Below, piece by piece: positions 12,795-27,309 of a stretch of 64,000 nt of DNA; the stretch's first letter is position 1, and every line of letters starts with the position of its first letter. The stretch comes from Arthrobacter zhangbolii. GTDB lineage: Bacteria; Actinomycetota; Actinomycetes; Actinomycetales; Micrococcaceae. The DNA lies in assembly GCF_022869865.1 (NCBI RefSeq), contig NZ_CP094984.1, positions 310,001 to 374,000 on the forward strand. The letters run 5' to 3'. Position numbers and translations under genes: made by a program. Under the pieces are notes generated by a model. That model was not told the DNA's origin and ran no database searches. It was given only the letters and a program-made list of their open reading frames with translations.

Positions 12795-13376
12795 TCAGCC
12801 GTTGCCGGCGGCCAGGCGCGCTACCTGCCGGAGGATGCGCGCGGCACGCACGGCGTCGTTGGGGGCGGTGACCACCTGCAGCAGGACCGGATACCGGGCC
12901 GTGCGGCTCAGCGCGGCAAACGCGGCGGCTGCGGCGGGATCGGCGTCGAGCGCGGTCTGCAGATCCGTGGGGACGTCGAGCGCGGCCGCCCCGGAGTAGG
13001 CGCTGTCCCAGCGGCCGTCCGCCTTGGCACGGGAGATTTCGGCGTAGCCGCGTTCCCGCATCCGGCCCGCAGCAATAAGGCCTGCGGTCAGTTCGATGTT
13101 CCGCTTCGACCACAGCGACCGCGCCCGGCGCGGCGTGAAGTGCTGCCGGTAGGTTCCCTGGTCTCCGCTGTTCCGCCGCCCGTCAATCCAGCCGCTGCAC
13201 AGGGCCTCCTCCAAGGCCTGGGCGTAGCTCAGCGACGTGGGCGACTGAACGCCCTTCTTCGCGAGGACCAGCCGGACACCGTTGCTGCAGGATTCGTTTT
13301 CCTCCAGCCACTCCCGCCAGGCGGCGGCGTCAGCCACAGTCAGTTCGGGAACGGCAGGAGATGGGATTGCGGGCAT
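12795..13376 (-). CDS. YdeI/OmdA-like family protein (copy 1)
   Basis: This 193-residue soluble protein carries the family core AWREWLEENES, SYAQALEEALCSGWIDGRR, YRQHFTPRRARSLWSKRNI and GRMRERGYAEI. The family is annotated YdeI/OmpD-associated or bacteriocin-protection-like; no biochemical role is established. A paralogue of the same layout occurs at 47079-47705. Two further starts (ATG 13394, TTG 13397) are possible, but the MPAIPSPAVPEL start leaves the conserved part intact. Confidence 0.78.
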   Translation of the reverse strand: MPAIPSPAVPELTVADAAAWREWLEENESCSNGVRLVLAKKGVQSPTSLSYAQALEEALCSGWIDGRRNSGDQGTYRQHFTPRRARSLWSKRNIELTAGLIAAGRMRERGYAEISRAKADGRWDSAYSGAAALDVPTDLQTALDADPAAAAAFAALSRTARYPVLLQVVTAPNDAVRAARILRQVARLAAGNG

Positions 13377-13456
13377 GCTTCGAGTCTGGCGCATCAACAG
13401 GACAGATACTGTCCGCTATCCGGTGCGGACCGGCGCCGACCGTCGGCCCGCACCGT

Positions 13457-14617
13457 TTACACCGCCAGTGCTGCGTGCGGGTAAACGGCCTGACGGCGCT
13501 GGAACTGCAGCACGTCCTTGTTCCGGATGACGCCGTCGCTGATTTCGATCGCCTGCCGGATGGTGTCGTTTTCCGCCCAGGCCGCGGGGCCGCCGATGAC
13601 GGTTTCCAGGAACGGCAGCAGGGCCTCGCTGATTTCCCAACTGGCGGAGTTCCACAGGTAGGACGGACTGTGGTCCACGGCGTAGTAGTTGATGTGCTCA
13701 CCCACCTCGAACATGGGGACCGCGAAGGTGGTGGTTTTCGCCCACTCGAAGCCCATGCCCTCATCGCAGGACACATCCACAATCAGGCTCCCGGGCCGGA
13801 AGGCGGCCAGGTCCTCGGTGCGCAAATAGGTCAGCGGGGCATTGGGATCCTGGAGCGTGCAGTTCACTACGATGTCGCTCTGGGCCAGGAACGGGGCAAG
13901 CGGCACCCGGCCGCGTTCGGTGATGACTTCGCTGAGGAACGGCGCAGAGTCATTGTGGTCGAACTGGGCTATCCGCACCGAGTGGATAGGGGAGCCCACT
14001 GCCGCGACACCGCGGTTGGTCAGTACCTGGACGTCGTGGATGCCGTGCGCGTTCAGTGCGGTCACGGCCCCGCGGGCGGTGGCACCGAAACCGATAACGA
14101 CGGCGCTGAGCCGGCGGCCGTAATCGCCCGTGACGCCGGTCAGGGCGAGGGAATGCAGCACGGAGCTGTAACCGGCCAGCTCGTTGTTCTTGTGGAACAC
14201 GTGCAGGCCGAAGCCGCCGTCGCCGGCCCAGTGGTTCATGGCCTCGAAGGCAATCAGCGTGAGTTTCTTATCGATCGCGAGCTGGGTGATGGCCCGGTCC
14301 TGCACACAGTGCGGCCAGCCCCAGAGGGTCTGCCCGTCCCGCAGCTCGGCAAGGTCCTCCGGCTGCGGCTTGGCCAGCAGGACGACGTCGGCCTCCGCCA
14401 CTACCTGGGCCCGGGGGAGGATTGCGCCCACCAGCGGTTTCAGCACGGTGTCGGACACACCGAAACTCTCGCCGTACCCCGTTTCGAGGATCAGCTGCTG
14501 CCGCACCTCCGGCGCGATGCGTTCCAGATGCAGCGGGTGGAGGGGCAGCCGGCGTTCGGCGGGCTTGCGGGTGCTGGCCAGGACACCGAGAGTGAGATGG
14601 TGCTCGGGGCCGGTCAC
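13457..14617 (-). CDS. N5-(carboxyethyl)ornithine synthase-like dehydrogenase
   Basis: This 386-residue member of the alanine dehydrogenase / transhydrogenase superfamily is closest to N5-(carboxyethyl)ornithine synthase, which joins pyruvate and the ornithine side chain by NADPH reduction. It contains LSAVVIGFGATARGAVTAL for the nucleotide fold, LIVDVSCDEGMGFEWAKTT and SYLWNSASWEISEALLPFL. The GTG start at 14617 overlaps the TGA of a 49-residue protein by 4 bp, so the two are translationally coupled. It is longer than the classical lactococcal enzyme (about 313). The substrate is therefore not certain; an alanine- or saccharopine-dehydrogenase-like reaction remains possible. Confidence 0.75.
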   Translation of the reverse strand: MTGPEHHLTLGVLASTRKPAERRLPLHPLHLERIAPEVRQQLILETGYGESFGVSDTVLKPLVGAILPRAQVVAEADVVLLAKPQPEDLAELRDGQTLWGWPHCVQDRAITQLAIDKKLTLIAFEAMNHWAGDGGFGLHVFHKNNELAGYSSVLHSLALTGVTGDYGRRLSAVVIGFGATARGAVTALNAHGIHDVQVLTNRGVAAVGSPIHSVRIAQFDHNDSAPFLSEVITERGRVPLAPFLAQSDIVVNCTLQDPNAPLTYLRTEDLAAFRPGSLIVDVSCDEGMGFEWAKTTTFAVPMFEVGEHINYYAVDHSPSYLWNSASWEISEALLPFLETVIGGPAAWAENDTIRQAIEISDGVIRNKDVLQFQRRQAVYPHAALAV

Positions 14618-14763
14618 TTCTTTTGGTTGCTTGCTGGCTTTGAGCCGGTGGCCTTGTCCATGGAACCGGACGGAGCTGCTGCGGCCTTCTTCTCGGCGCG
14701 TTTTTCCTTGATGGATTTGCCGGACTTCTTGGATGCTGCTTGGCGCGGGGACTTGTCTGACAT
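14614..14763 (-). CDS. Lysine-rich small protein, 49 aa
   Basis: This short, very basic protein (MSDKSPRQAASKKSGKSIKE then EKRAEKKAAAAPSG) has a strong ribosome site AGGAG just before the ATG. Its stop overlaps the start of the carboxyethylornithine-synthase-like gene. It has no membrane segment, and a lysine/alanine helix makes nucleic-acid or ribosome binding possible. Similar short proteins occur in other Micrococcaceae as I recall them, but no function is known to me. The coupling suggests at least a translational role for the downstream gene. Confidence 0.72.
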   Translation of the reverse strand: MSDKSPRQAASKKSGKSIKEKRAEKKAAAAPSGSMDKATGSKPASNQKK

Positions 14764-14921
14764 GTTCGCTCCTGTAGCGGAACCGGAGGGGTTCCTGACT
14801 CTGAACCATACAGGTCCGGTTCGTCTCCGGGTTACGCATGTTTTTGCGGAGTACCCGGGCTTGCCCCGACCCTGGGTATACCGGTTATGACCGCCGTGCA
14901 TGATGCAGAAGCCGCCGCGAT

Positions 14922-15380
14922 CTACTTCAGCGATAAGGCCCCGGTGGGTGAGACCTTGTACAGGCCCACGGTGCCGGACCCGCCCTGCTCCGCGAGCGAT
15001 TTGGACCGGACCTTCACCTCGAAGGATCCGTCCGGCTTCTCAAACACGTCGTACACCAGGTCCGGGCTGTTCTGCAGGGAATCGGCGACGATCTGCTGTG
15101 CGGTGTCGGCAGTCAACGGGGCCTGGGCCCCCGGGAGGGCCGGTGCGGACACGGCAGGCGGTTCCGCGGTCGCCTCCGGGACTGACACTTCGCCCGCAGG
15201 CGGTGAGGGCTGCCGGGTGATCGGAGCGGGTGCCGCTGACTTCGCAGCCGTCGCGGAAGGTGTCCGGGACGGTGCGGGATCCGCCGCCTCCGGGCTGACG
15301 CTGCAGCCGGAGACAGCCGCCGCCGAGAGGACTAAAGCGGACAGCATTAAAACGGTGGTCCTGGTTGAACTGTTTTCCAT
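14922..15380 (-). CDS. Putative lipoprotein of unknown function
   Basis: This 152-residue protein has an N-terminal signal with a lipobox (VLSAAAVSGC, Cys at residue 26). A proline/alanine/serine-rich linker follows, then a small C-terminal domain of about 60 residues (TADTAQQIVADSLQNSPDLV, FEVKVRSKSLAEQGGSGTVG). It should be anchored outside the membrane. AGGGGG lies upstream at a slightly long distance, so a TTG at 15386 is an alternative start. I do not recognise the terminal domain. Confidence 0.7.
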   Translation of the reverse strand: MENSSTRTTVLMLSALVLSAAAVSGCSVSPEAADPAPSRTPSATAAKSAAPAPITRQPSPPAGEVSVPEATAEPPAVSAPALPGAQAPLTADTAQQIVADSLQNSPDLVYDVFEKPDGSFEVKVRSKSLAEQGGSGTVGLYKVSPTGALSLK

Positions 15381-15454
15381 ACGCAAAGCGATTTCCCCCT
15401 GAACAACTGTTAGGCAACCTATCTGCGGGAGCCTAGGCGATGGCGGACCGCCGC

Positions 15455-16588: not shown

Positions 16589-17761
16589 ATGCCGCCTCTG
16601 AGACAACGCCACAGCGCCTGGAGAGTGGCCGGTATTACTGCCGGGACCGGGGTGGCCGGGCTGCTGCTTTTCCTGGTGGTCCAAGGCGCCATGATGCCGC
16701 CCGAAGGCGAAGAGGTCACGGGCAGGTTCGCCGCCCTGATGTTCCTGGACTTCCTCCTGGGCCTTGCTGCGCTTGGGCTGCTGCCCCTTGCCCTGCGCCG
16801 GGCACCGGTGGGTGCCGGGCTGGCCATCATCGCCGTGAGCGGGCTCTCCAGCCTGGCTTTCCCGGCGGCCTGCCTGTGCATTATCCGCATTGCCGCGCTG
16901 CGGCGTCCCAGGTACGTGGCCGCGACCGCGGCAGTCTTTACCGCGGGGATGGCCGCCGGCACAGCCGTCAACCCCGGTGATCCGATCGACGGCGAGATCT
17001 GGTGGGTGCTCGTGGCCGCAGTGGTCCCGCTGGTGGTCCTGGTGCTTGTCGGCCTGAACCGCGGCGCGCGGCAGCAGTTGATTGTCTCCCTTCACCACGA
17101 AGCGGATAGTGCACGCCGGGAACAGGACGCCCGCGCGGACCAGGCGCGGCTGGCCGAACGCACCCGGATCGCCCGGGAAATGCACGACACCCTGGCCCAC
17201 CGGCTCAGCCTGATCAGCATGCATGCAGGAGCCTTGGAATACCGGACGGATCTGGACGCCGAGACCATCCGTTCCACGGCCGGGATGCTGCGGGAGACCG
17301 CGCATAAGGCAGCAACGGAACTGCGCACCGTGCTGACGGTCCTGCGGGAGGACGAGGCGGAGGCTGCGCCCCAGCCGAACATCGCATCCATTCCGGCATT
17401 GGTGGATTCCGCGCGTGCGGCCGGCACCGAGATCACCCTGAGTATTGAACCGGCCCTGCTGGCCACCGGGGAGGATGCTCCCGCGGACGCCACCTCCCGC
17501 CACCTGTACCGCGTGGCGCAGGAAGGCATTACCAACGCCCAGAAACACGCCCCGGGCCATCCGGTGACCGTGTCCCTGACCGGTGCCCCCGGACACGGGA
17601 TTACCGTGAAAGTGAGCAATCCGATTTCCGGCTCTCCGCACCGCTCGCCGGATGGGCTGGGCCTGATCGGGCTGGCCGAACGGGCCCGGCTGTCCGGTGG
17701 GTCCTTTGAATCGGGGGCCCGCCAGGGCGTTTACATGACCAAAGTGGAGGTGCCGTGGTGA
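16589..17761 (+). CDS. NarL-type sensor histidine kinase
   Basis: This 390-residue kinase has four N-terminal membrane segments (about residues 15-140). A cytoplasmic HisKA_3 dimerisation helix follows (RTRIAREMHDTLAHRLSLIS; phospho-acceptor His about residue 199) and then an ATP-binding domain with the N-box QEGITNAQKHAP and G-box GLGLIGLAERARLSGG. No extracellular sensor domain is visible, so it probably senses a membrane or envelope signal. Its TGA overlaps the response-regulator start. The trailing ATPase domain is short but contains the expected motifs. Confidence 0.9.
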   Translation: MPPLRQRHSAWRVAGITAGTGVAGLLLFLVVQGAMMPPEGEEVTGRFAALMFLDFLLGLAALGLLPLALRRAPVGAGLAIIAVSGLSSLAFPAACLCIIRIAALRRPRYVAATAAVFTAGMAAGTAVNPGDPIDGEIWWVLVAAVVPLVVLVLVGLNRGARQQLIVSLHHEADSARREQDARADQARLAERTRIAREMHDTLAHRLSLISMHAGALEYRTDLDAETIRSTAGMLRETAHKAATELRTVLTVLREDEAEAAPQPNIASIPALVDSARAAGTEITLSIEPALLATGEDAPADATSRHLYRVAQEGITNAQKHAPGHPVTVSLTGAPGHGITVKVSNPISGSPHRSPDGLGLIGLAERARLSGGSFESGARQGVYMTKVEVPW

Positions 17762-18420
17762 AGGCGGACAAAGTGCGGGTAATGGTGGTGGATGATGAGC
17801 CCCTGATCCGGGCGGGGCTGCGGCTCATCCTCGATGGGGCGCCGGACCTTTCCATTGTCGGTGAAGCGGGCGACGGTGAAACCGCCGTCCGGCTCGCCGC
17901 CGAGCTGGAGCCCGACGTCGTACTGATGGACATCCGCATGCCCCGCCTGAGCGGGATCGGAGCCACTGAACGCATGACTGTGCTGCCCGTCCCGCCCAAG
18001 GTGATTGTCCTGACCTCATTCGAGACGGATGATTTCATTCTGTCCGCGCTGCGGGCCGGGGCCAGCGGTTTCCTGCTGAAGGACACCGCGCCGGCCGACA
18101 TAGTCTCAGCGGTCCGCGCCGCGGCGGAGGACAAGCTGCGTTTCTCCCCGGGAATCCTTAAACGTATTGTCGCGGCCGCAGCCACGGTCCGGCCGGCGCC
18201 CGCGGTACAGCCCAATCCGCTGCTGGAGCTCAGTGAGCGGGAGCGCGCCGTGGCCCGTGCCGTTGCCCGCGGCCTGACCAACACGGAAATAGGCGCCGAA
18301 CTCTTCGTCAGCGTGGCTACGGTGAAAACCCATATTGCCAGTGCCTTCACCAAACTCGACGTCACCAACCGTGTCCAGTTGGCCGTGACCGTCCTCCAGG
18401 CCGACGCACCGGCCGGGTAG
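17758..18420 (+). CDS. NarL/LuxR-type response regulator
   Basis: This regulator of about 220 residues is paired with the kinase just upstream. The receiver domain has VMVVDDEPLIRAGLR, the phospho-acceptor Asp in VVLMDIRMPRLSG (residue 58) and the Lys in GFLLKDTAP. The C-terminal LuxR helix-turn-helix reads LSERERAVARAVARGLTNTEIG, then VSVATVKTHIASAFTKLDVTN. Two GTG codons (17755, 17758) follow GGAGG; the second has better spacing. Targets are unknown. The divergent gene next to the pair encodes a CPBP membrane protease, a common neighbour of such systems. Confidence 0.92.
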   Translation: MKADKVRVMVVDDEPLIRAGLRLILDGAPDLSIVGEAGDGETAVRLAAELEPDVVLMDIRMPRLSGIGATERMTVLPVPPKVIVLTSFETDDFILSALRAGASGFLLKDTAPADIVSAVRAAAEDKLRFSPGILKRIVAAAATVRPAPAVQPNPLLELSERERAVARAVARGLTNTEIGAELFVSVATVKTHIASAFTKLDVTNRVQLAVTVLQADAPAG

Positions 18421-18454
18421 CTTCGGGACCGTTGCCGCCCTGCTTCTCCTAAAA

Positions 18455-18498
18455 GGGGAAGCCGGCAGGCCGCCATCACTGCGGCCTGCCGGTTTCCC
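18455..18498. terminator. Strong bidirectional intrinsic terminator
   Basis: The core arms CCGGCAGGCCGC (18462-18473) and GCGGCCTGCCGG (18481-18492) are perfect around a 7-base loop. They are extended by GGGGAAG/TTTCCC with one wobble. The hairpin sits between the convergent response regulator and enoate reductase genes. Confidence 0.85.
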
Positions 18499-18522
18499 GC
18501 GCCCGGGGGAAGGTGCGCCCTC

Positions 18523-20640
18523 CTAGAGCTCCGTGGCAACCTTCCACGAGGAGTGGATAGCGCCGTGGATGTAGTTGACGGCGCCGGCGTCGCCCACAAC
18601 GTCGACGTCGATGCCCAGGTCCGCCGCCCGCAGCTCGTCCGCCAGTGGTGAGGCCGACGTCGTACCGTCTGCGTAGACCACCATGTCCGCGGGAGCCGTG
18701 AAGGTCTCTTCGCCCACGGTCCACTCCACGCTCTTGGGCGTGATGCGGGTGATGGAGGCGTTGCGGTGGATTTTCACCCCGTGCTTCTCGGCATCCTTCA
18801 CCGCGGTCCAGCGCCGAGGCATGGCCAGCGGCAGGCCGAGCTGCTGCTTTTCGTGCAGCAGCGTCACGCGGCGGCCGCGCTCGGCGAGGAATTCGGCCAG
18901 TTCCAGGCCCACCAGCGAACCGCCGATCACCACCACGTCCTTGCCCATCGGCAGCCAGAACTTGGTGAACTGGCGGACAAACTCGGGGCTCTTGGTGACG
19001 CCGGAGAGCCGGCCCAGCTTGCCCAGGGTGCTCAGTACCGCACCGGCTTCCTCGGCAGTGGCCGTTCCGAGCATCATGGCGCGCAGCGTGTCACCGGTCT
19101 GCACCACGGGCAGGTCACCGCCGGGGAAGTCCGGCTTGGGGCGGACGGCGCCGGTGGCAATGATGACGTGGTCCGGGTGCAGGGCCCGGATGGATTCCAC
19201 CGTGGCCGGGGTGTTGAGCTTTACCGCAATGTTCAGCCGCCGGATTTCGGACTTGAACCAGCGCAGCAGCCGCTCGTTGTCGGGGGTGGTCATGGTGGAG
19301 AACCACATGGTCCCGCCCAGGCGGTCCGACTTGTCCACCACGGTGACGCGGTGGCCGCGTTCGGTCAGCACGCGGGCGCTTTCCAGGCCCGCGGGGCCGG
19401 CGCCGACGACGACCACGTGCTTGGTGGCGGAGGCGGGCTTCAGCGGCAGCAGCGCCTCGTTGCCCAGTGCAGGGTTGACGGCGCAGAACGGGGTGTCGTC
19501 AAAGAAGTTCTCGGCCACGCAGAGGTAGCAGTTGATGCACGGGCGGACCTGGTCGAACCTGCCGTCGCGGATCTTGTTCGGCAGTTCCGGATCGGCCAGC
19601 AGCTGGCGGCCCATGGCTGCGAAGTCGATCTGCCCGGCGGCCAGTGCCTTCTCGGACACCTCCGGCAGCATACGGCCGACGGCGATGACGGGAACGCTGA
19701 CCTGCTTTTTGATCTCGGCAGCGTTCTCCAGGTAGGCGCCGACCTTGTTGGGCAGCGGGCCGTCGGTGAAGTTATCGAACGGGTTTCGGCCCCAGCCGGT
19801 GACGTGGATGGCGTCCGCGCCGGCGGCTTCGAACAGCTTCGAGGCTTCGGTGGCTTCCTCGAGGGTGAGTCCGCCGTCCTGTCCGTATTCCTGTCCGGCG
19901 ACACGGACGAGGATGGCCAGGCGGTCGCCGACGCGCTCCTTGACGGCGCTGATGACCTCGCAGGCCAGCCGGGCCCGGTTTTCCAGCGAACCGCCGTACT
20001 GATCCGTGCGCTTGTTGTCGCGCTGGTTCAGGAATACCCCGAGGATGTACCCGTGGGCTGCGTGGATTTCGATGGCGTCGCAGCCGGCCCTGGCGATGCG
20101 CTCGGCGGCATCGGCCCAGGTCCTGACCAGCCACGCGATGTCCTCGGCGGTCATCTCGCGGTATTCGGTCTGCTTGCCGGCCGTGGCGGCACCCATTTTG
20201 CCCAGCTCTTCGCGGGTGCTGTCAGCCAGGGCGGACATGTCATAGGTGTAGTCGGGCTGGTTCGGGGCGAGCACGGGGCGGTCATTGGCCACGTCCACGC
20301 GGGCGACCTTGCCGTGGTGGGTGGACTGGATGCACAGCTTGCTGCCGGCGGCGTGGACGGCGTCGGCCAGTGCCTTGAGGCCGGGGATGTATTTGTCATC
20401 GGAGAGGCCCGGCTCCTTCATGGAGGCCGCGCCGTACGGGAAGGCGATGGCGCAGGCGCCGGTGATGATCAGGCCTGCACCGCCGGCGGCGCGGGCCACA
20501 TAGTGGTCAATCTCCGGCTGCTCGATCTCACCGTGCTCCGAGACATTCATGTCCATCGCCGGGAGGACGATCCGGTTGTGCGTTTCCATGGGGCCGATAC
20601 GGCCCGGAGACATCAGGTGGGGGAAGGTTTTAGTACTCAC
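18523..20640 (-). CDS. FMN/FAD/4Fe-4S enoate reductase (2,4-dienoyl-CoA reductase-like)
   Basis: This 705-residue protein fuses an Old Yellow Enzyme barrel (residues about 8-345; HAAHGYILGVFLNQRDNKRTD, YGGSLENRARL) to a cysteine cluster (CINCYLCVAEN and a later FCAVNP) for a 4Fe-4S centre. Two nucleotide folds follow (HVVVVGAGPAGLESA and VVVIGGSLVGLELAEFL). This is the architecture of 2,4-dienoyl-CoA reductase, trimethylamine dehydrogenase and bile-acid enoate reductases, so the substrate is uncertain. The start is GTG, with weak ribosome site. A TetR-like palindrome (20660-20676) lies 20 bp upstream and probably controls it. Confidence 0.87.
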   Translation of the reverse strand: MSTKTFPHLMSPGRIGPMETHNRIVLPAMDMNVSEHGEIEQPEIDHYVARAAGGAGLIITGACAIAFPYGAASMKEPGLSDDKYIPGLKALADAVHAAGSKLCIQSTHHGKVARVDVANDRPVLAPNQPDYTYDMSALADSTREELGKMGAATAGKQTEYREMTAEDIAWLVRTWADAAERIARAGCDAIEIHAAHGYILGVFLNQRDNKRTDQYGGSLENRARLACEVISAVKERVGDRLAILVRVAGQEYGQDGGLTLEEATEASKLFEAAGADAIHVTGWGRNPFDNFTDGPLPNKVGAYLENAAEIKKQVSVPVIAVGRMLPEVSEKALAAGQIDFAAMGRQLLADPELPNKIRDGRFDQVRPCINCYLCVAENFFDDTPFCAVNPALGNEALLPLKPASATKHVVVVGAGPAGLESARVLTERGHRVTVVDKSDRLGGTMWFSTMTTPDNERLLRWFKSEIRRLNIAVKLNTPATVESIRALHPDHVIIATGAVRPKPDFPGGDLPVVQTGDTLRAMMLGTATAEEAGAVLSTLGKLGRLSGVTKSPEFVRQFTKFWLPMGKDVVVIGGSLVGLELAEFLAERGRRVTLLHEKQQLGLPLAMPRRWTAVKDAEKHGVKIHRNASITRITPKSVEWTVGEETFTAPADMVVYADGTTSASPLADELRAADLGIDVDVVGDAGAVNYIHGAIHSSWKVATEL

Positions 20641-20659: not shown

Positions 20660-20676
20660 TGTTTACACCGTAAACA
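20660..20676. promoter_or_regulatory. Palindromic operator upstream of the enoate reductase
   Basis: TGTTTACACCGTAAACA has perfect 7-bp arms around ACC. It sits 20 bp upstream of the reductase start in the divergent region shared with the methyltransferase operon. The form suits a TetR- or GntR-type repressor. No such regulator gene lies next to it. Confidence 0.65.
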
Positions 20677-20770: not shown

Positions 20771-21391
20771 ATGCGCAAGGAAACCCTCTGGGAAGCTAAA
20801 AAGAAGCAAAATCCGGGACACTCCGCCTGGTATATCCAGCGGTTCAAGCAGATGCGGGAGCAGGGCGTGGACCTGCACGGCGAGGCCCGGCTGATCGACG
20901 CCATGGTGCCGCGCGGCGCTCGGATTCTCGACGCCGGCGCCGGGCCCGGCCGGGTGGGCGGCGAGCTGGCGCGGCGCGGGCACGCCGTCGTCGGCGTGGA
21001 TGTGGACCCGGAGCTGATCGACGCTGCCCGGAACGACCATCCCCAGGCCACCTGGCTGGTCGGGGACCTGACCGAACTGGACCTGCCCGCCGAGGGCATC
21101 CGCGAACCGTTTGACCTGATTGTCTGCGCCGGCAACGTGATGACGTTCCTGGCCCCCGGCACCGCCCGTGAAGTGCTGGCCCGGATGCGTGCGCACCTCG
21201 CGCCGGAAGGACGGGTAGTGATCGGTTTCGGTGCCGGGCGCGGTTACGACTTCGGGCAGTTCTTCGCCGACGCCGAGGCAGCCGGGCTGGGCGTGGACCT
21301 GAAGCTGTCCACCTGGGACCTGCGCCCGCTGACCCCGGACGCCGGCTTCCTGGTGGCGGTACTCTCGGCCGCACCCGGCGGCGGGGAGTGA
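20771..21391 (+). CDS. Class I SAM-dependent methyltransferase
   Basis: This 206-residue methyltransferase has the SAM motif I ARILDAGAGPGRVGGELARR at about residues 50-69, the acidic end of the next strand (VVGVDVDPELID) and FDLIVCAGNVMTFL for the post-II region. A lysine-rich N-terminal stretch (KKKQNPGHSAWYIQRF) precedes the fold. It resembles family members annotated as generic methyltransferases, so the acceptor is unknown. Its TGA overlaps the next gene's GTG by 4 bp (21388-21391), making it the first gene of a four-gene operon. Confidence 0.8.
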   Translation: MRKETLWEAKKKQNPGHSAWYIQRFKQMREQGVDLHGEARLIDAMVPRGARILDAGAGPGRVGGELARRGHAVVGVDVDPELIDAARNDHPQATWLVGDLTELDLPAEGIREPFDLIVCAGNVMTFLAPGTAREVLARMRAHLAPEGRVVIGFGAGRGYDFGQFFADAEAAGLGVDLKLSTWDLRPLTPDAGFLVAVLSAAPGGGE

Positions 21392-22443
21392 GACGTCCCG
21401 TCCTGCTGGACTCCGACGCCCCGTCGGCAGCGTGGCTGGACGCGTTAGCCGACCTGGCCCGCCGGGCCGCGGCGGTGGAAGGATCTGTCGACGCCGCCCT
21501 GGGCCTGCTGGCACCGGCTGAGACGCTGGCGCCGCTGCCCGGCACCGGCACCACGGTGCGGCTCTGGGAGCTGCTGGCCACCCTGGGTGCGGCAGACCTT
21601 ACCGCGGCCCGGGTAGTCGAGCCCCACCTCGACGCCCTGGCCATTCTTGCCCAGGCCGGCCTGGACCATCCCGGAAGCGCGGGTTCCGCCGGGGCTTCCT
21701 GGGGTGTGTACGCCGCCGAAGGCTCCGGGCTCCGGCTGGATGCCCGGCCGGAAGGCGGCGGCTGGCGCCTGGCCGGCACCAAACCCTGGTGCTCCCTGGC
21801 AGCACAGCTGGACCGTGCGGTGGTCACCGCGCATACCGGCCCCGGCACCCGCCGGGCCTTCGCCGTGGACCTCCGCCATGCCGGTGTCCGTCCCGGCCGG
21901 GGGACCTGGGCCAGCCGCGGGCTGACCGCCGTGGACAGCACCGCGGTGGAGTTCACCGACGTGCCGGCGGTGCCCGTGGGCGGGGATAACTGGTACCTCC
22001 AACGCAGCGGCTTCGCCTGGGGCGGTATCGGCGTTGCCGCGGTCTGGTTTGGGGGTGCCGTGGGGGTTGCCCGCCGGCTGGCCGCCGCCGCCCGAAACCG
22101 GGAACCGGACCAGATTGCCCTCATGCTGCTGGGCCAGACGGACACCGCCCTGCACGCGGCCCGCCGCGTCCTGGCCGCCGCGGCGGCTGACGTCGATGCC
22201 GCCCGCGCGGACGGGCCCGACGGCGCGCTGCTCGCCGGACAGGTGAGGGCGGTGGTGGCGGACGCCGCCGAGCAGGTCCTCCGGCTGGCCGGGCACGGGC
22301 TGGGTCCGGGGCCGCTGACCGGCGAGGAGGAGTACGCCCGGCGGGTGGCGGACCTGCAGGTCTATCTGCGCCAGCACCACGCCGAACGGGACTCGGCAGC
22401 CCTTGGCCGCGCCCTGCTCACCGCCGGGGGAGAACCATGGTGA
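21388..22443 (+). CDS. Acyl-CoA dehydrogenase-like protein of a PIG-L/GT2 operon
   Basis: This 351-residue protein has the acyl-CoA dehydrogenase fold pattern: a helical N-terminal half, a middle beta part (GGGWRLAGTKPWCSLAAQLDR, then RAFAVDLRH) and a helical C-terminal half rich in alanine. It is shorter than typical members, and I cannot locate the usual catalytic glutamate with confidence. It may therefore be a dedicated oxidase or dehydrogenase for a carrier-bound or glycosylated substrate rather than a beta-oxidation enzyme. Its stop overlaps the PIG-L gene start by 7 bp. This gene trio (acyl-CoA dehydrogenase, PIG-L/methyltransferase, glycosyltransferase) recurs in other bacteria as I recall it, with no assigned product. 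Confidence 0.75.
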   Translation: MRRPVLLDSDAPSAAWLDALADLARRAAAVEGSVDAALGLLAPAETLAPLPGTGTTVRLWELLATLGAADLTAARVVEPHLDALAILAQAGLDHPGSAGSAGASWGVYAAEGSGLRLDARPEGGGWRLAGTKPWCSLAAQLDRAVVTAHTGPGTRRAFAVDLRHAGVRPGRGTWASRGLTAVDSTAVEFTDVPAVPVGGDNWYLQRSGFAWGGIGVAAVWFGGAVGVARRLAAAARNREPDQIALMLLGQTDTALHAARRVLAAAAADVDAARADGPDGALLAGQVRAVVADAAEQVLRLAGHGLGPGPLTGEEEYARRVADLQVYLRQHHAERDSAALGRALLTAGGEPW

Positions 22444-23786
22444 GCTTCACGCACCGGGACCCCACCCCCGGAGAGAACATCTGGCAGCCGGTGCTGGCCG
22501 GCCTGCCCGGGCTGGCGGACGTGCTTTCGGAGCCGCCGCGCCGGATGGTGGTCCTGGCCGCGCATCCGGATGATGAGTCCCTCGGCGCCGGCGGGCTGAT
22601 CGCGACCCTCGCGGCGGCCGGCACCGCCGTCGACGTGGTGGTGGCAACCGCCGGGGAAGCCTCCCACCCCGATTCCCCGACCCACACTCCGCAGACCCTG
22701 ACCGTGCTGCGGGAAGCGGAGCTGCGCGCCGCCGTCGCGCGGCTCGCTCCGGATGCCAGGGTTCACCTGTTGGGGTTGCCGGACGGGCAGCTGGCCGCCC
22801 GATGCGCGGAGCTGGACACCTTCCTGGCCGGGCTGGTCGGCACCGACACGGACGGCCTCTGGCTGGCTGCCCCCTGGCGCCGGGACGGGCATACCGACCA
22901 CGACGCCGCCGGAGCCGCTGCCGCCCGGCTGGCCGCCAAGGCCCGGGTACCGCTGCTGGAATACCCGATCTGGCTCTGGCACTGGGGCGCCGCGGCGGAC
23001 CTGCCGCAGGGCATGCACACGCTGGCCCTGCCCCGGGACGCCGCTGCCGCCAAGGCCGCGGCAATGGGGGAGCACCGCAGCCAGGTGGCTCCGCTTTCGG
23101 ACCGGCCGGGGGACGAGGCGCTCCTGGCGCCGGAGGTCCTGGCGCACTTCGAGCGCCCCTTCGAAACCTTCATCGTGACCGTACCGCGGACCGGCAAGCA
23201 GGTTTTCGAGGACCTCTATGCCTCCTCGCCGGACCCCTGGAACTTCGGAGACAGCTTCTACGAACGGCGCAAACGGGAGCTGACCCTGGCCCTGCTGCCC
23301 CGGGAACGGTTCGGCCGCGTCTTTGAACCCGGCTGCTCCATCGGCGTGCTCACCGAAGAGCTGGCCCGGCGCGCGGACAGCGTCACCGCCATGGACATTT
23401 CCGCGCGCGCCCTGGAACTGGCCCGGCAGCGGATCGGGGCGGACCAGCGGATCCGGTTTAGCCAGGGCTCCATTCCCGAGGACTGGCCGGAGGGCAGCTT
23501 CGATCTGGTGGTCCTCTCCGAGATCGGCTATTTCCTCACCCGGGAGCAGCTGCGCGAAACGGTCCAGCGGGCGGCGGCCGCCCTGGACCGAGACGGCGTG
23601 CTGCTGCTCTGCCACTGGCGGCATCCGATCCGGGACTGGCCGATGGACGCGGACGAGGTGCACGAGGTGTTCCGCGCCGGCAGCGGCCTGGAACTGCTGG
23701 CTGAACACTCTGAAGCCGACTTCCGCATCGACGTGCTGGTACATCCGCCGGCCCGGTCCGTGGCAGAACGCGAAGGGCTGCTGTGA
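22437..23786 (+). CDS. PIG-L deacetylase / SAM methyltransferase fusion
   Basis: This 449-residue bifunctional protein has an N-terminal PIG-L/LmbE zinc deacetylase domain (residues about 36-220). It shows the metal motif AAHPDDESLGAGG (His43, Asp46) and a second site WRRDGHTDHDAAG. The C-terminal NodS-like methyltransferase (about 245-430) shows VFEPGCSIGVLTEELARR and MDISARALELA. PIG-L enzymes remove acetyl groups from N-acetyl-glucosamine-type sugars, as in mycothiol and GPI synthesis. A fused methyltransferase suggests that the freed amine or an adjacent group is methylated. It overlaps both neighbours (7 bp and 4 bp), indicating coordinated, near-stoichiometric translation. Confidence 0.87.
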   Translation: MVSFTHRDPTPGENIWQPVLAGLPGLADVLSEPPRRMVVLAAHPDDESLGAGGLIATLAAAGTAVDVVVATAGEASHPDSPTHTPQTLTVLREAELRAAVARLAPDARVHLLGLPDGQLAARCAELDTFLAGLVGTDTDGLWLAAPWRRDGHTDHDAAGAAAARLAAKARVPLLEYPIWLWHWGAAADLPQGMHTLALPRDAAAAKAAAMGEHRSQVAPLSDRPGDEALLAPEVLAHFERPFETFIVTVPRTGKQVFEDLYASSPDPWNFGDSFYERRKRELTLALLPRERFGRVFEPGCSIGVLTEELARRADSVTAMDISARALELARQRIGADQRIRFSQGSIPEDWPEGSFDLVVLSEIGYFLTREQLRETVQRAAAALDRDGVLLLCHWRHPIRDWPMDADEVHEVFRAGSGLELLAEHSEADFRIDVLVHPPARSVAEREGLL

Positions 23787-24475
23787 CCCGGCCGCACGTC
23801 GGCGTCGTCATTCCTGCCCGCGATGAGGAACAGCTGCTGCCCCGCTGCCTGGCTGCAGTGGCCGCCGCCGTGGCGGCACTAAAGGGCCGGGTTGTCCCCG
23901 CGGAGGTGAGCGTGGCCGTGGTGCTTGACTCCTGTACCGACGGCTCCGCCCGGGCGGCAGCGCAGGCGGGCCGGCGGCTGGGCCTGGACCTGCACCTGCT
24001 GCAGACGGATGCGGGGTCGGTGGGTGCGGCCCGTCATGTTGGCACCGCCGCCATGCTTGGGCTTGGTGCGCAGTGGATTGCCGTCACGGACGCGGACACT
24101 GTGGTGCCGGCCAGTTGGCTGGTCATTCAGCTGGGCTTCGCCGACGCCGGCTATGAGCTGGTCCTGGGCACCGTGGAGCCTGACGCCGCTGACCTCAGCG
24201 CGGAGCACCTGGCACGCTGGCATGCCGAACACCGGCTGACCGAAGGCCACCCCCACATCCACGGGGCGAACATGGCCTTCTCCGCACGTGCCTACACCGC
24301 CGCCGGCGGCTTCGAACCCCTGCACATCCACGAAGACGTCCAGCTGGTCTCACGGATCCGGGCCGCCGGGGCAGGCTGGACCGCCACCGACAGGATGCGG
24401 GCGGTCACCTCCGGTCGGCTGGACGGGCGGGTGCCGGCCGGCTTTTCCGGCTACCTGCGCCGGCTCGGGGCCTGA
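23783..24475 (+). CDS. Family 2 glycosyltransferase
   Basis: This compact GT-A glycosyltransferase of 230 residues starts with GTG, overlapping the previous stop by 4 bp. It shows VGVVIPARDEEQLLPRCL, the nucleotide-sugar motif VTDADTVVP (DxD) and HIHGANMAFSARAYTAAGGFEP, ending at HIHEDVQLVSRIRAAG, with the catalytic Asp in ED. It has no membrane anchor, so it likely works on a cytoplasmic acceptor. It closes the four-gene operon and may attach a sugar that the PIG-L/methyltransferase protein then edits. Confidence 0.83.
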   Translation: MTRPHVGVVIPARDEEQLLPRCLAAVAAAVAALKGRVVPAEVSVAVVLDSCTDGSARAAAQAGRRLGLDLHLLQTDAGSVGAARHVGTAAMLGLGAQWIAVTDADTVVPASWLVIQLGFADAGYELVLGTVEPDAADLSAEHLARWHAEHRLTEGHPHIHGANMAFSARAYTAAGGFEPLHIHEDVQLVSRIRAAGAGWTATDRMRAVTSGRLDGRVPAGFSGYLRRLGA

Positions 24476-24496: not shown

Positions 24497-24542
24497 CGCC
24501 GACGGCGCCGCCCGGCGGAGAGGCCGGGCAGCGCCGTCGGCG
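24497..24542. terminator. Long bidirectional hairpin terminator
   Basis: CGCCGACGGCGC pairs with GCGCCGTCGGCG, and the inner arms GCCCGGC and GCCGGGC pair around a 6-base loop. It lies between the glycosyltransferase stop and the convergent oxygenase gene. Confidence 0.82.
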
Positions 24543-24563: not shown

Positions 24564-25595
24564 CTACTTGCCCGCCACCAGCTCCGGGTGGTGCAGCTTG
24601 GCCACCTGCGGGTGGGCACGCAGCCAGCCCTTAAGCACGTTGGCGCCGTAGGAGGCCAGCATGGGGTTGTCCGGATCATCAGAGATCCCGCGGGACTGAC
24701 CGGCCAGCGCCGGCGGCAGCTGCACCGGGTCAATGACGGCGTCCAGCCGCGGGGACCAGAAGAACGGAATGGCGTACCGGTCCACGCCCGGTGCCGGTGC
24801 CAGCACCCGGTGGATGGTGGCCGAGAGGTAGCCCTGGGTGGCTACCTCCAGCATCTCGCCCAGGTTCACCACCAGGGCGCCGGGGATGGGTTCCACCGGG
24901 ATCCAGGTGTCGGACTCGTGCGGCTTCACTTCCAGCCCGCCCACCGAATCCTGCAGCAGCAGCGTGACGAAACCGTAGTCGGCGTGCGAGCCAACTCCCT
25001 GCGTGCCCGCTTCCTTCACCACGCCGCCCACGTAGTGGATGAGCTTGGCCATCCAGGCCGGGGTGCCCTCAAACGGTTCGGTGAAGTGGTCCTCCGGCAG
25101 CTCCAGGGACACGGCGATGGCGGCGAGCAGCTCCGCACCCACCTCGGACATCCGCTCGGCCCAGGCCATGGACGTGCTGCGCAGCTCGGGCAGTACCTCG
25201 TCCGGGAACAGGTTCGGGCCCTGTACCAGCCAGTACGGCTGATCGGCCGGGTAGTCCGCGGCGGGCTCGCGTTCCGGTCCGAAGTCCACCTGTTCACGCG
25301 AATCCGGGCGGCCGCGGGTGATTTCGGTGCCGAGCCGGGTGTAGCCGCGGAAGTGCGGGGACTTGCGGTTGTCCAGGGCAAGCCGGTCCTCCAGGGGGAG
25401 GTCGAAGAACCGCTTGGTCACACTGAACAGGTCCTCCACCATCGCTTCGCCGGCACCGTAGCCAACGAGCTGGAAGAAGCCGATCCGGTGCGTCGCATCG
25501 CGCAGCTGGTCAATGAATTCGGGGTTGAAGGAGCCGTCGGCATTGCGGGCCGTGCTCAGGTCAAGAACAGGAATTGACTCGGGAATCGCACTCAT
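24564..25595 (-). CDS. Isopenicillin-N-synthase-like 2OG/Fe(II) oxygenase
   Basis: This 343-residue non-haem iron oxygenase is of the IPNS/2-oxoglutarate superfamily. It has the N-terminal DIOX_N-like segment (IPVLDLSTARN, IGFFQLVGYG) and the jelly-roll iron site VGSHADYGFVTLLLQD (HxD) with the distal His in ATIHRVLAP. The downstream RYAIPFF supplies the usual arginine. Bacterial members oxidise unknown small molecules, and nothing nearby fixes the substrate. The ATG start is clear and length matches the family. The divergent glutathione peroxidase gene starts 150 bp away. Confidence 0.85.
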   Translation of the reverse strand: MSAIPESIPVLDLSTARNADGSFNPEFIDQLRDATHRIGFFQLVGYGAGEAMVEDLFSVTKRFFDLPLEDRLALDNRKSPHFRGYTRLGTEITRGRPDSREQVDFGPEREPAADYPADQPYWLVQGPNLFPDEVLPELRSTSMAWAERMSEVGAELLAAIAVSLELPEDHFTEPFEGTPAWMAKLIHYVGGVVKEAGTQGVGSHADYGFVTLLLQDSVGGLEVKPHESDTWIPVEPIPGALVVNLGEMLEVATQGYLSATIHRVLAPAPGVDRYAIPFFWSPRLDAVIDPVQLPPALAGQSRGISDDPDNPMLASYGANVLKGWLRAHPQVAKLHHPELVAGK

Positions 25596-26264: not shown

Positions 26265-27167
26265 TCAGAGAACGACGGCGTCGTCCGCAGCCTCGCCCGC
26301 GGCCATCGCCACCCAGCGCTCAAAGTAAAGCGCGCCGGCGTCGTCGTGGATCAGGGACCCGGCCGTGAGGACCGGATAGTCCGTCTCCGGCACGCCGTCC
26401 GCGGGCCGAACGTCCACGTGTGCCACCTCAAAGCCCAGCCGGGACAGCTCATCCGCCATGGCGTAGTCGGTGCGGGAATCGCCCACGGTGCGCCAGGTGC
26501 GCGGCACCTCTGTGCCCTCCGCTTCAAGCATCGCCAGGGCCCGGCGCGCACCCAGGTCCTTGCCCACCCCCACGGCTTCAATGTCGGTGGAGATGATGGT
26601 CGGGTCAATCCGGAAGGACACGTTCCCGGCGGCATCGGGAATGGTGCGGTCCAGCCGCTGCCCGCCCAGGCCCGCCAGCCCCAGCTGCTCCAGCGCGTCG
26701 GCGTCGAACAGGCCCTGCTCGGAGAGGTAGTCGGCATTGTCCACGTGTACGTGCTGTTCCACGGACAGCATGGCCAGCTTGGTCTCGTCGAAGAACATGG
26801 TCCGCGAGTACTTGTCATCCACCAGATTGCGGATTGTTTCGGCGTAATCGCCGGGGACCTTCAGCTCCGGATCCACCTGCGGCTGGTCCGGGCCGGTTCC
26901 GTCGAAGGAGAACCAGACCGCGCCCTTCTCGCAGACGGCATGGACCCGGACGCCCTCCGGCAGCCCGGCAGCGATCATGGGCTGCATGACCTGCTGCCGG
27001 ATGAAGTCATCGGAGCGTCCGGTGTTGAAGATAACGGGCCAGCCGGCCACGGCCAGCGAGACCAGGTCGCGGATGATGGCCGGGCGGACGGTCCTGGAGA
27101 CAGGGCTGGCAACGGGGCCGTCGACGTCGAGCAGGAGACCAAGGCGGGAAGCGGAGAAGTTCACCAC
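26265..27167 (-). CDS. HAD-superfamily hydrolase
   Basis: This 300-residue HAD phosphatase opens with the DxD motif in LGLLLDVDGPVASPVS. It ends its core with GDSRTDYAMADELSRLGFEV, motif IV of the fold carrying the acidic metal ligands. Motif II is in VIFNTGRSDD. It has a cap domain in the middle (about residues 80-200). Proteins of this type hydrolyse phosphomonoesters, but the substrate is unknown. The GTG at 27167 (or 27164) precedes the conserved N terminus; an ATG at 27245 would add 26 unusual residues. Confidence 0.75.
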   Translation of the reverse strand: MVNFSASRLGLLLDVDGPVASPVSRTVRPAIIRDLVSLAVAGWPVIFNTGRSDDFIRQQVMQPMIAAGLPEGVRVHAVCEKGAVWFSFDGTGPDQPQVDPELKVPGDYAETIRNLVDDKYSRTMFFDETKLAMLSVEQHVHVDNADYLSEQGLFDADALEQLGLAGLGGQRLDRTIPDAAGNVSFRIDPTIISTDIEAVGVGKDLGARRALAMLEAEGTEVPRTWRTVGDSRTDYAMADELSRLGFEVAHVDVRPADGVPETDYPVLTAGSLIHDDAGALYFERWVAMAAGEAADDAVVL

Positions 27168-27309
27168 TCCAGTATCGCGTCTTTGGCGGAGTCCGGAGTG
27201 CGCGCCGGCACGGGAGCGGAAGGTAAAAGAGTGCCAATCTGGCATTCTGACGGGCCCGCGCCCGAGCGTCGCTGTTTCTTTGGGTGCCGTTGTTCTTTAC
27301 TCTGTACTA

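Follow-up and report, generated by a model that had tools for sequence, protein, structure and literature searches.

Within a 64,000-nucleotide stretch of the Arthrobacter zhangbolii genome (contig NZ_CP094984.1, positions 310,001 to 374,000; hereafter the window), three overlapping genes form a real and widely spread cassette encoding an acyl-CoA dehydrogenase (ACAD)-fold flavoprotein, a PIG-L deacetylase fused to a NodS-like methyltransferase and a family 2 glycosyltransferase. A sequence-only reading of the window had described four open reading frames overlapping by 4, 7 and 4 bp, and the coordinates bear out this layout:

20771..21391, + strand: gene 1, generic class I S-adenosylmethionine (SAM) methyltransferase (Pfam and NCBIfam; 4-bp overlap with gene 2), outside the conserved cassette
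21388..22443, + strand: gene 2, ACAD-fold flavoprotein homologue, 351 residues (Pfam, structure model, alignment)
22437..23786, + strand: gene 3, bifunctional PIG-L de-N-acetylase/NodS-like N-methyltransferase, 449 residues
22524..23171, + strand: PIG-L half of gene 3, about residues 30–245 (HPDDE and HTDH motifs)
23184..23783, + strand: NodS-like methyltransferase half of gene 3, about residues 250–449 (DPW lid motif)
23783..24475, + strand: gene 4, short family 2 glycosyltransferase, 230 residues (DAD and ED motifs)
24497..24542: hairpin between converging genes, with a T tail on the − strand only

The limits of the cassette follow from comparison with its relatives. The named set consisted of the best 80 of 115 confirmed actinobacterial loci, with at most 6 kb per side. 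These were retrieved with peptides of the fusion protein, so the query favours the fused state but does not bias the presence of the ACAD-like and glycosyltransferase genes. PIG-L directly precedes the methyltransferase in one frame in 79 of the 80 loci, the ACAD-like gene lies just upstream on the same strand in 78 and a family 2 glycosyltransferase gene just downstream in all 80; the three genes stand complete and in order in 77. Among the exceptions, L056 and L104 lie near contig ends, and the PIG-L part of L097 was not registered by the scoring rule, yet a full-length fusion match is present. Since the genes that flank the four in the window, encoding an Old Yellow Enzyme (OYE)-type oxidoreductase and a 2-oxoglutarate (2OG)-Fe(II) oxygenase, recur in only 2 and 1 of these 80 loci, the gene order goes beyond chance. 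In the family sample the fusion protein was matched in 71 of 149 genomes, own genome included, and 28 of the 29 loci drawn from the other genomes, some of which may duplicate species of the named set, carry all three genes in order. A match to the whole fusion or to either half was obtained in 52 of the 396 genomes of the phylum sample, again including the own genome. The named, family and phylum counts therefore define genes 2–4 as the conserved unit, patchy in occurrence yet tightly held. A search for a further constant partner was unsuccessful, the most frequent other neighbour cluster (Dps-like) being present in 21 of 173 loci, many of them short.

Gene 1 does not belong to this unit. Its relative was found in 1 of the 80 named loci, in none of the 20 distant actinobacterial and 21 plasmid loci described below, and in none of the 29 family loci, which are too short upstream for a good test. 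The single positive locus (L035) is from Arthrobacter yangruifuii, whose PIG-L/methyltransferase protein is 91% identical to that of the window. In the methyltransferase tree, the gene 1 protein (row L202) sits among the outgroup, which comprised 9 of the 21 other PF08241 matches of the own genome (8 without a methyltransferase-profile match and 4 scoring below 20 bits were left out). Because gene 1 lies outside the conserved unit, the four-gene boundary initially proposed is wrong, and gene 1 was dropped as a pathway member; the expectation that gene order would be kept in relatives holds for genes 2–4 and fails for gene 1.

The cassette, or most of it, also occurs in distant Actinomycetota, in Pseudomonadota and Deinococcota and in one cyanobacterium, its hosts including Deinococcus radiodurans and Acinetobacter. 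We compared 20 distant actinobacterial regions, chosen from the 52 matching genomes, and 21 plasmid regions, chosen from match lists (L171 and L180 are taken, from record length and position, to be one plasmid); both sets were chosen by hand and are therefore non-random, and loci L187–L191 (trifunctional proteins and NodS) were excluded from the cassette counts. All 20 distant regions contain both an ACAD-like and a glycosyltransferase match, often in a different order or on a different strand, though the glycosyltransferase profile may catch unrelated family 2 genes there. In the plasmid regions the corresponding figures are 20 and 18 of 21. Deacetylase and methyltransferase are fused in 1 of the 20 distant and none of the 21 plasmid regions; in the plasmid records they are nearly always separate genes. 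The deacetylase is of PIG-L type in 32 of the 41 loci compared; Rubrobacter-type loci carry a NodB-type deacetylase instead. The order of the window, annotated or matched, recurs in Acinetobacter, Kitasatospora, Pandoraea and Sulfitobacter. In Deinococcus AJ005, Komagataeibacter, Bradyrhizobium, Sphingomonas, Roseivivax, Sphingobium, Novosphingobium and Jiella the glycosyltransferase gene is on the opposite strand or elsewhere, and the regions of Roseomonas, D. wulumuqiensis and D. radiodurans gave no glycosyltransferase match. In Legionella the genes of the set are ordered differently, and only a custom profile detected the ACAD-like protein; PIG-L lies about 3 kb away in Cupriavidus, Paraburkholderia has only the methyltransferase and glycosyltransferase, and an unannotated Nostoc record matches the profiles of all four domains. 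Some cassettes are interrupted in Deinococcus (L181, L177), by a helicase gene between PIG-L and the methyltransferase in D. radiodurans and by a TnpB gene between the ACAD-like gene and PIG-L in D. wulumuqiensis. On an Acinetobacter soli plasmid (L115, 5857–6881) the ACAD-like match is split across two frames and no gene is annotated.

The identity of the fusion protein (model with a predicted local distance difference test score, pLDDT, of 94.4) is well defined. Its N-terminal half is a PIG-L de-N-acetylase, scoring 81.7 bits against a Pfam cut-off of 28.2, and in its motifs, HPDDE at 43–47 and HTDH at 152–155, residues H43, P44, D45, D46, E47, H152, D154 and H155, T153 being excepted, do not vary among the 40 aligned sequences, that of the window among them. 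The C-terminal half is a NodS-type protein in the wide sense, with 52.6 bits against the gathering cut-off of 24 of PF05401 (54.6 in the genome search), a permissive model that also gave matches above threshold in 6 of the 14 control genomes. NodS is also its closest solved structure, an N-terminal DPW lid is present as part of a NodS-type fold, and the domain groups with NodS in the tree. It is not a NodS equivalog: the window protein reaches 53.8 bits with NF041650, whose curated cut-off is 300, and three single-domain relatives 73.8 to 74.8. A role in anti-phage defence was considered and rejected, the only overlap being that of the methyltransferases of genes 1 and 3 with mad2 (72 and 71 bits); genes 2 and 4 had none.

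Gene 2 has the ACAD fold over its whole length (model pLDDT 93.8) and belongs by fold to the ACAD superfamily. It scores 30.8 bits with Acyl-CoA_dh_M, below the curated Pfam cut-off of 33.3, has no NCBIfam match and bears the signature DLxx[YF]LRQ near its C terminus. The catalytic glutamate of ACADs, which we take to stand either near the C terminus (MCAD 376) or on helix G (IVD 254), is missing at both places, and gene 2 does not therefore qualify as an acyl-CoA dehydrogenase in the enzymatic sense. In a sequence-based alignment with the ACADs of the own genome, family position 329 is Gln in 46 of 47 rows (a gap in the remaining one), position 330 is non-acidic in all 46 rows with letters, and position 212 is Gly in 40 of 47 and Asp in the 7 rows of NodB type. 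The sequence-only reading had found the catalytic base unclear; this stands for the usual sites, but nearby position 333, which is acidic (Glu or Asp) in 42 of the 47 rows, could be a displaced base. ACAD-fold monooxygenases (DszC/TdsC, KijD3 and the ORF36 nitrososynthase) resemble gene 2 in fold, rank highly in Foldseek and likewise lack the usual glutamate. They differ in that identity is only about 20% and gene 2, known here from its sequence and model, is shorter; nor did they come ahead of true ACADs in two further comparisons. The absence of KijD3 from the 50 VIA-align rows for gene 2 is no argument against kinship. A reductase-type gene neighbours the cassette in Rubrobacter. ACAD-like proteins of Deinococcus carry about 400 extra N-terminal residues (L116, 3572–5932; L177 and L181 by annotated length), for which Pfam gave no match in L116.

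Gene 4 is assigned to family 2 by Pfam and has DAD and ED motifs. Its matches include lipid-carrier enzymes of ArnC type, and among NCBIfam models MftF and EpsD at 42–49 bits. No clear membrane helix is apparent, its most hydrophobic 19 residues being borderline at 1.63, in a test that is uninformative here, given that the fusion protein reaches 1.87.

Taken together, these data lead us to propose, with evenly balanced confidence, that genes 2–4 together make a glycoside or glycoconjugate containing an aminosugar, by NodB–NodS-like chemistry and in the service of stress survival. The glycosyltransferase would attach an N-acetyl-hexosamine to an acceptor, the PIG-L half (or the NodB-type enzyme of Rubrobacter-type loci) would strip the N-acetyl group, and the NodS-like half would methylate the freed amine, which the fusion would pass between its two active sites. 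The flavoprotein would oxidize the product last, most likely at the N-methylated amine, in the manner of the amino-sugar oxygenases of ACAD fold and not of a fatty-acyl-CoA dehydrogenase. The whole would thus parallel the NodB–NodS branch of Nod factor synthesis, put to use in surviving drying and oxidation instead of in symbiosis. The data show the gene identities, their conservation, the kinship with NodS, the exchange of deacetylase type and the lack of the usual glutamate; all of the reactions, the sequence in which they run, the substrate acted on and the part played in stress are our inference. The idea of deacetylation, methylation and glycosyl transfer was already present in the sequence-only reading; it is strengthened by the resemblance of the methyltransferase half to NodS in fold, tree and lid motif and by the NodB-type enzyme that replaces PIG-L in some relatives, and in full it has an even chance of being right. 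Its remark that no characterized pathway is known to use this set also agrees with our survey, which found neither such a pathway nor a product assigned to the cassette in literature that left out most subscription journals; the set goes unmentioned in passages of PMC13232832, PMC6181384, PMC12029717, PMC13130816 and PMC9814549.

Alternatively, the enzymes may modify a surface polysaccharide or a lipid-linked glycan, the amine being methylated on the polymer or lipid carrier so as to alter surface charge under stress. The lipid-carrier enzymes among the matches of gene 4 speak for this, the Sphingobium cassette continues from a family 4 glycosyltransferase and further glycosyltransferases, and a UDP-galactopyranose mutase lies near the cassette in Deinococcus AJ005. 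The lack of a clear membrane helix in the window glycosyltransferase, itself borderline, and the absence of any flippase- or polymerase-like member from the 12 neighbour clusters whose representatives were inspected, most of them without a family search, count against this explanation, which we consider rather unlikely. Gene 2 might also be a genuine dehydrogenase whose base has moved and whose substrate is the acyl or prenyl tail of a glycolipid, while the deacetylase and methyltransferase act on the head group. The acidic residue at 333 slightly raised the standing of this possibility, whereas the lack of acid at 329 and 330 and the glycine at 212 lower it; that no acyl-CoA ligase or acyltransferase occurs among the 12 inspected clusters is a weak point on the same side, and the idea seems to us improbable. 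Finally, PIG-L could deacetylate a GlcNAc glycoside in a low-molecular-weight thiol or cofactor pathway resembling those of mycothiol and bacillithiol. The window protein is not a deacetylase of those pathways, since the BshB1, BshB2, MshB and Mca models give 20.6–41.8 bits, far below cut-offs of 182–277, and direct kinship was ruled out on this ground; moreover, the annotation of the plasmid regions lists no cysteine ligase, and the MshA/BshA step belongs to a different glycosyltransferase family. We regard such a pathway as very improbable.

The suggested link of the aminosugar cassette to stress comes from its surroundings. A stress-type gene is listed in 11 of 19 annotated plasmid regions: Dps (L116, L122), catalase (L120, L122, L175, L179, L182, L183), trehalose genes (L115, L121), Ku/LigD (L119) and general or universal stress proteins (L117, L179). 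None is listed in the other 8 (L118, L176, L177, L178, L180, L181, L184, L185). A Dps profile, built partly from the named loci themselves, matches 20 of the 80 named loci in 1.0 Mb (three at only 80 to 94 bits), which is a raw count; nine of these loci are non-independent because all are from Arthrobacter. The own genome, of 3.46 Mb, contains a single ferritin-family gene, which lies a long way from the cassette. In passages of PMC5660220, A. baumannii genes for a glycosyltransferase, a SAM methyltransferase, LmbE and an ACAD-related protein, marked as one operon, are 31- to 62-fold down-regulated in two colistin-dependent mutants, and trehalose-synthesis and catalase genes are among the same 33 down-regulated genes. 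We infer that this catalase (Table 2) is the one in the katE–dtpC operon, which, according to part of PMC13232832, protects against drying. Such genes are described beside blsA in Acinetobacter in a passage of PMC6240043. Several acyl-CoA dehydrogenases are reported as down under drying in an excerpt of PMC13130816, from which their relation to the gene 2 family could not be established.

The single shared terminator proposed earlier is only partly sustained. A hairpin with a 20-pair stem does lie at 24497–24542, but the T tail belongs to the − strand, for the converging gene at 24564–25595, no T run following the stem on the + strand. A promoter scan found none, which carries little meaning in such a genome. 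Between gene 1 and the OYE-type gene (18523–20640, − strand), a perfect 7-bp inverted repeat, TGTTTAC-ACC-GTAAACA (20660–20676), looks like a repressor operator, perhaps of the OYE gene. Four further open reading frames of the window without Pfam match are candidate genes: 13361–14887 (509 residues), 14887–15399 (171), 17604–18599 (332) and 26265–27245 (326).

If the proposed pathway is correct, survival under stress involves an as yet uncharacterized metabolite or surface glycan, and the question of where NodS came from can be put to the test; the fusion is a self-contained bifunctional protein, and both of its substrates can be screened directly. A bolder proposition, which we hold to be doubtful, is that a stress-protective glycoside with an N-methylated, then N-oxidized amino sugar is made in at least four bacterial phyla through an ancient deacetylase and N-methyltransferase module, whose methyltransferase would share its origin with NodS; N-methylation of the nodulation signal would then have been recruited from stress chemistry.

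Among known systems, NodB and NodS of rhizobia, with NodC, come close to the cassette in bringing together a de-N-acetylase, an N-methyltransferase and a family 2 glycosyltransferase within a single cluster, and the kinship extends to the grouping of the methyltransferases and to the NodB-type deacetylase of Rubrobacter-type loci. In contrast to the Nod system, the window deacetylase is a PIG-L protein fused to the methyltransferase, an ACAD-fold flavoprotein is added, and the cassette is found outside symbionts; its scores with the NodS and NodB equivalog models fall well short of the cut-offs, and only 2 of 27 cassette glycosyltransferases have the QxxRW motif. The NodA model matched nothing in the own genome, nor in the control genomes. 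Proteins named by NCBI as trifunctional glycosyltransferase/SAM methyltransferase/polysaccharide deacetylase unite the same three kinds of domain in one chain, and their methyltransferase part falls together with NodS and the cassette enzymes; unlike the cassette, they contain a CE4 deacetylase instead of PIG-L, and no ACAD-like gene is listed alongside. Two such proteins, joining a family 2 glycosyltransferase, a NodS-type methyltransferase and a CE4 deacetylase, are encoded at L187 (2964–6437) and L188 (3417–6416), one host being a cyanobacterium and the other a Sinorhizobium, in which the gene stands in a run that also encodes other glycosyltransferases and an ABC transporter. The A. baumannii genes ACICU_02432–02435, as given in Table 2 of PMC5660220, have the same four product types as the window in the same order and are marked as one operon; they differ in that deacetylase and methyltransferase are separate and in being known from transcript data.

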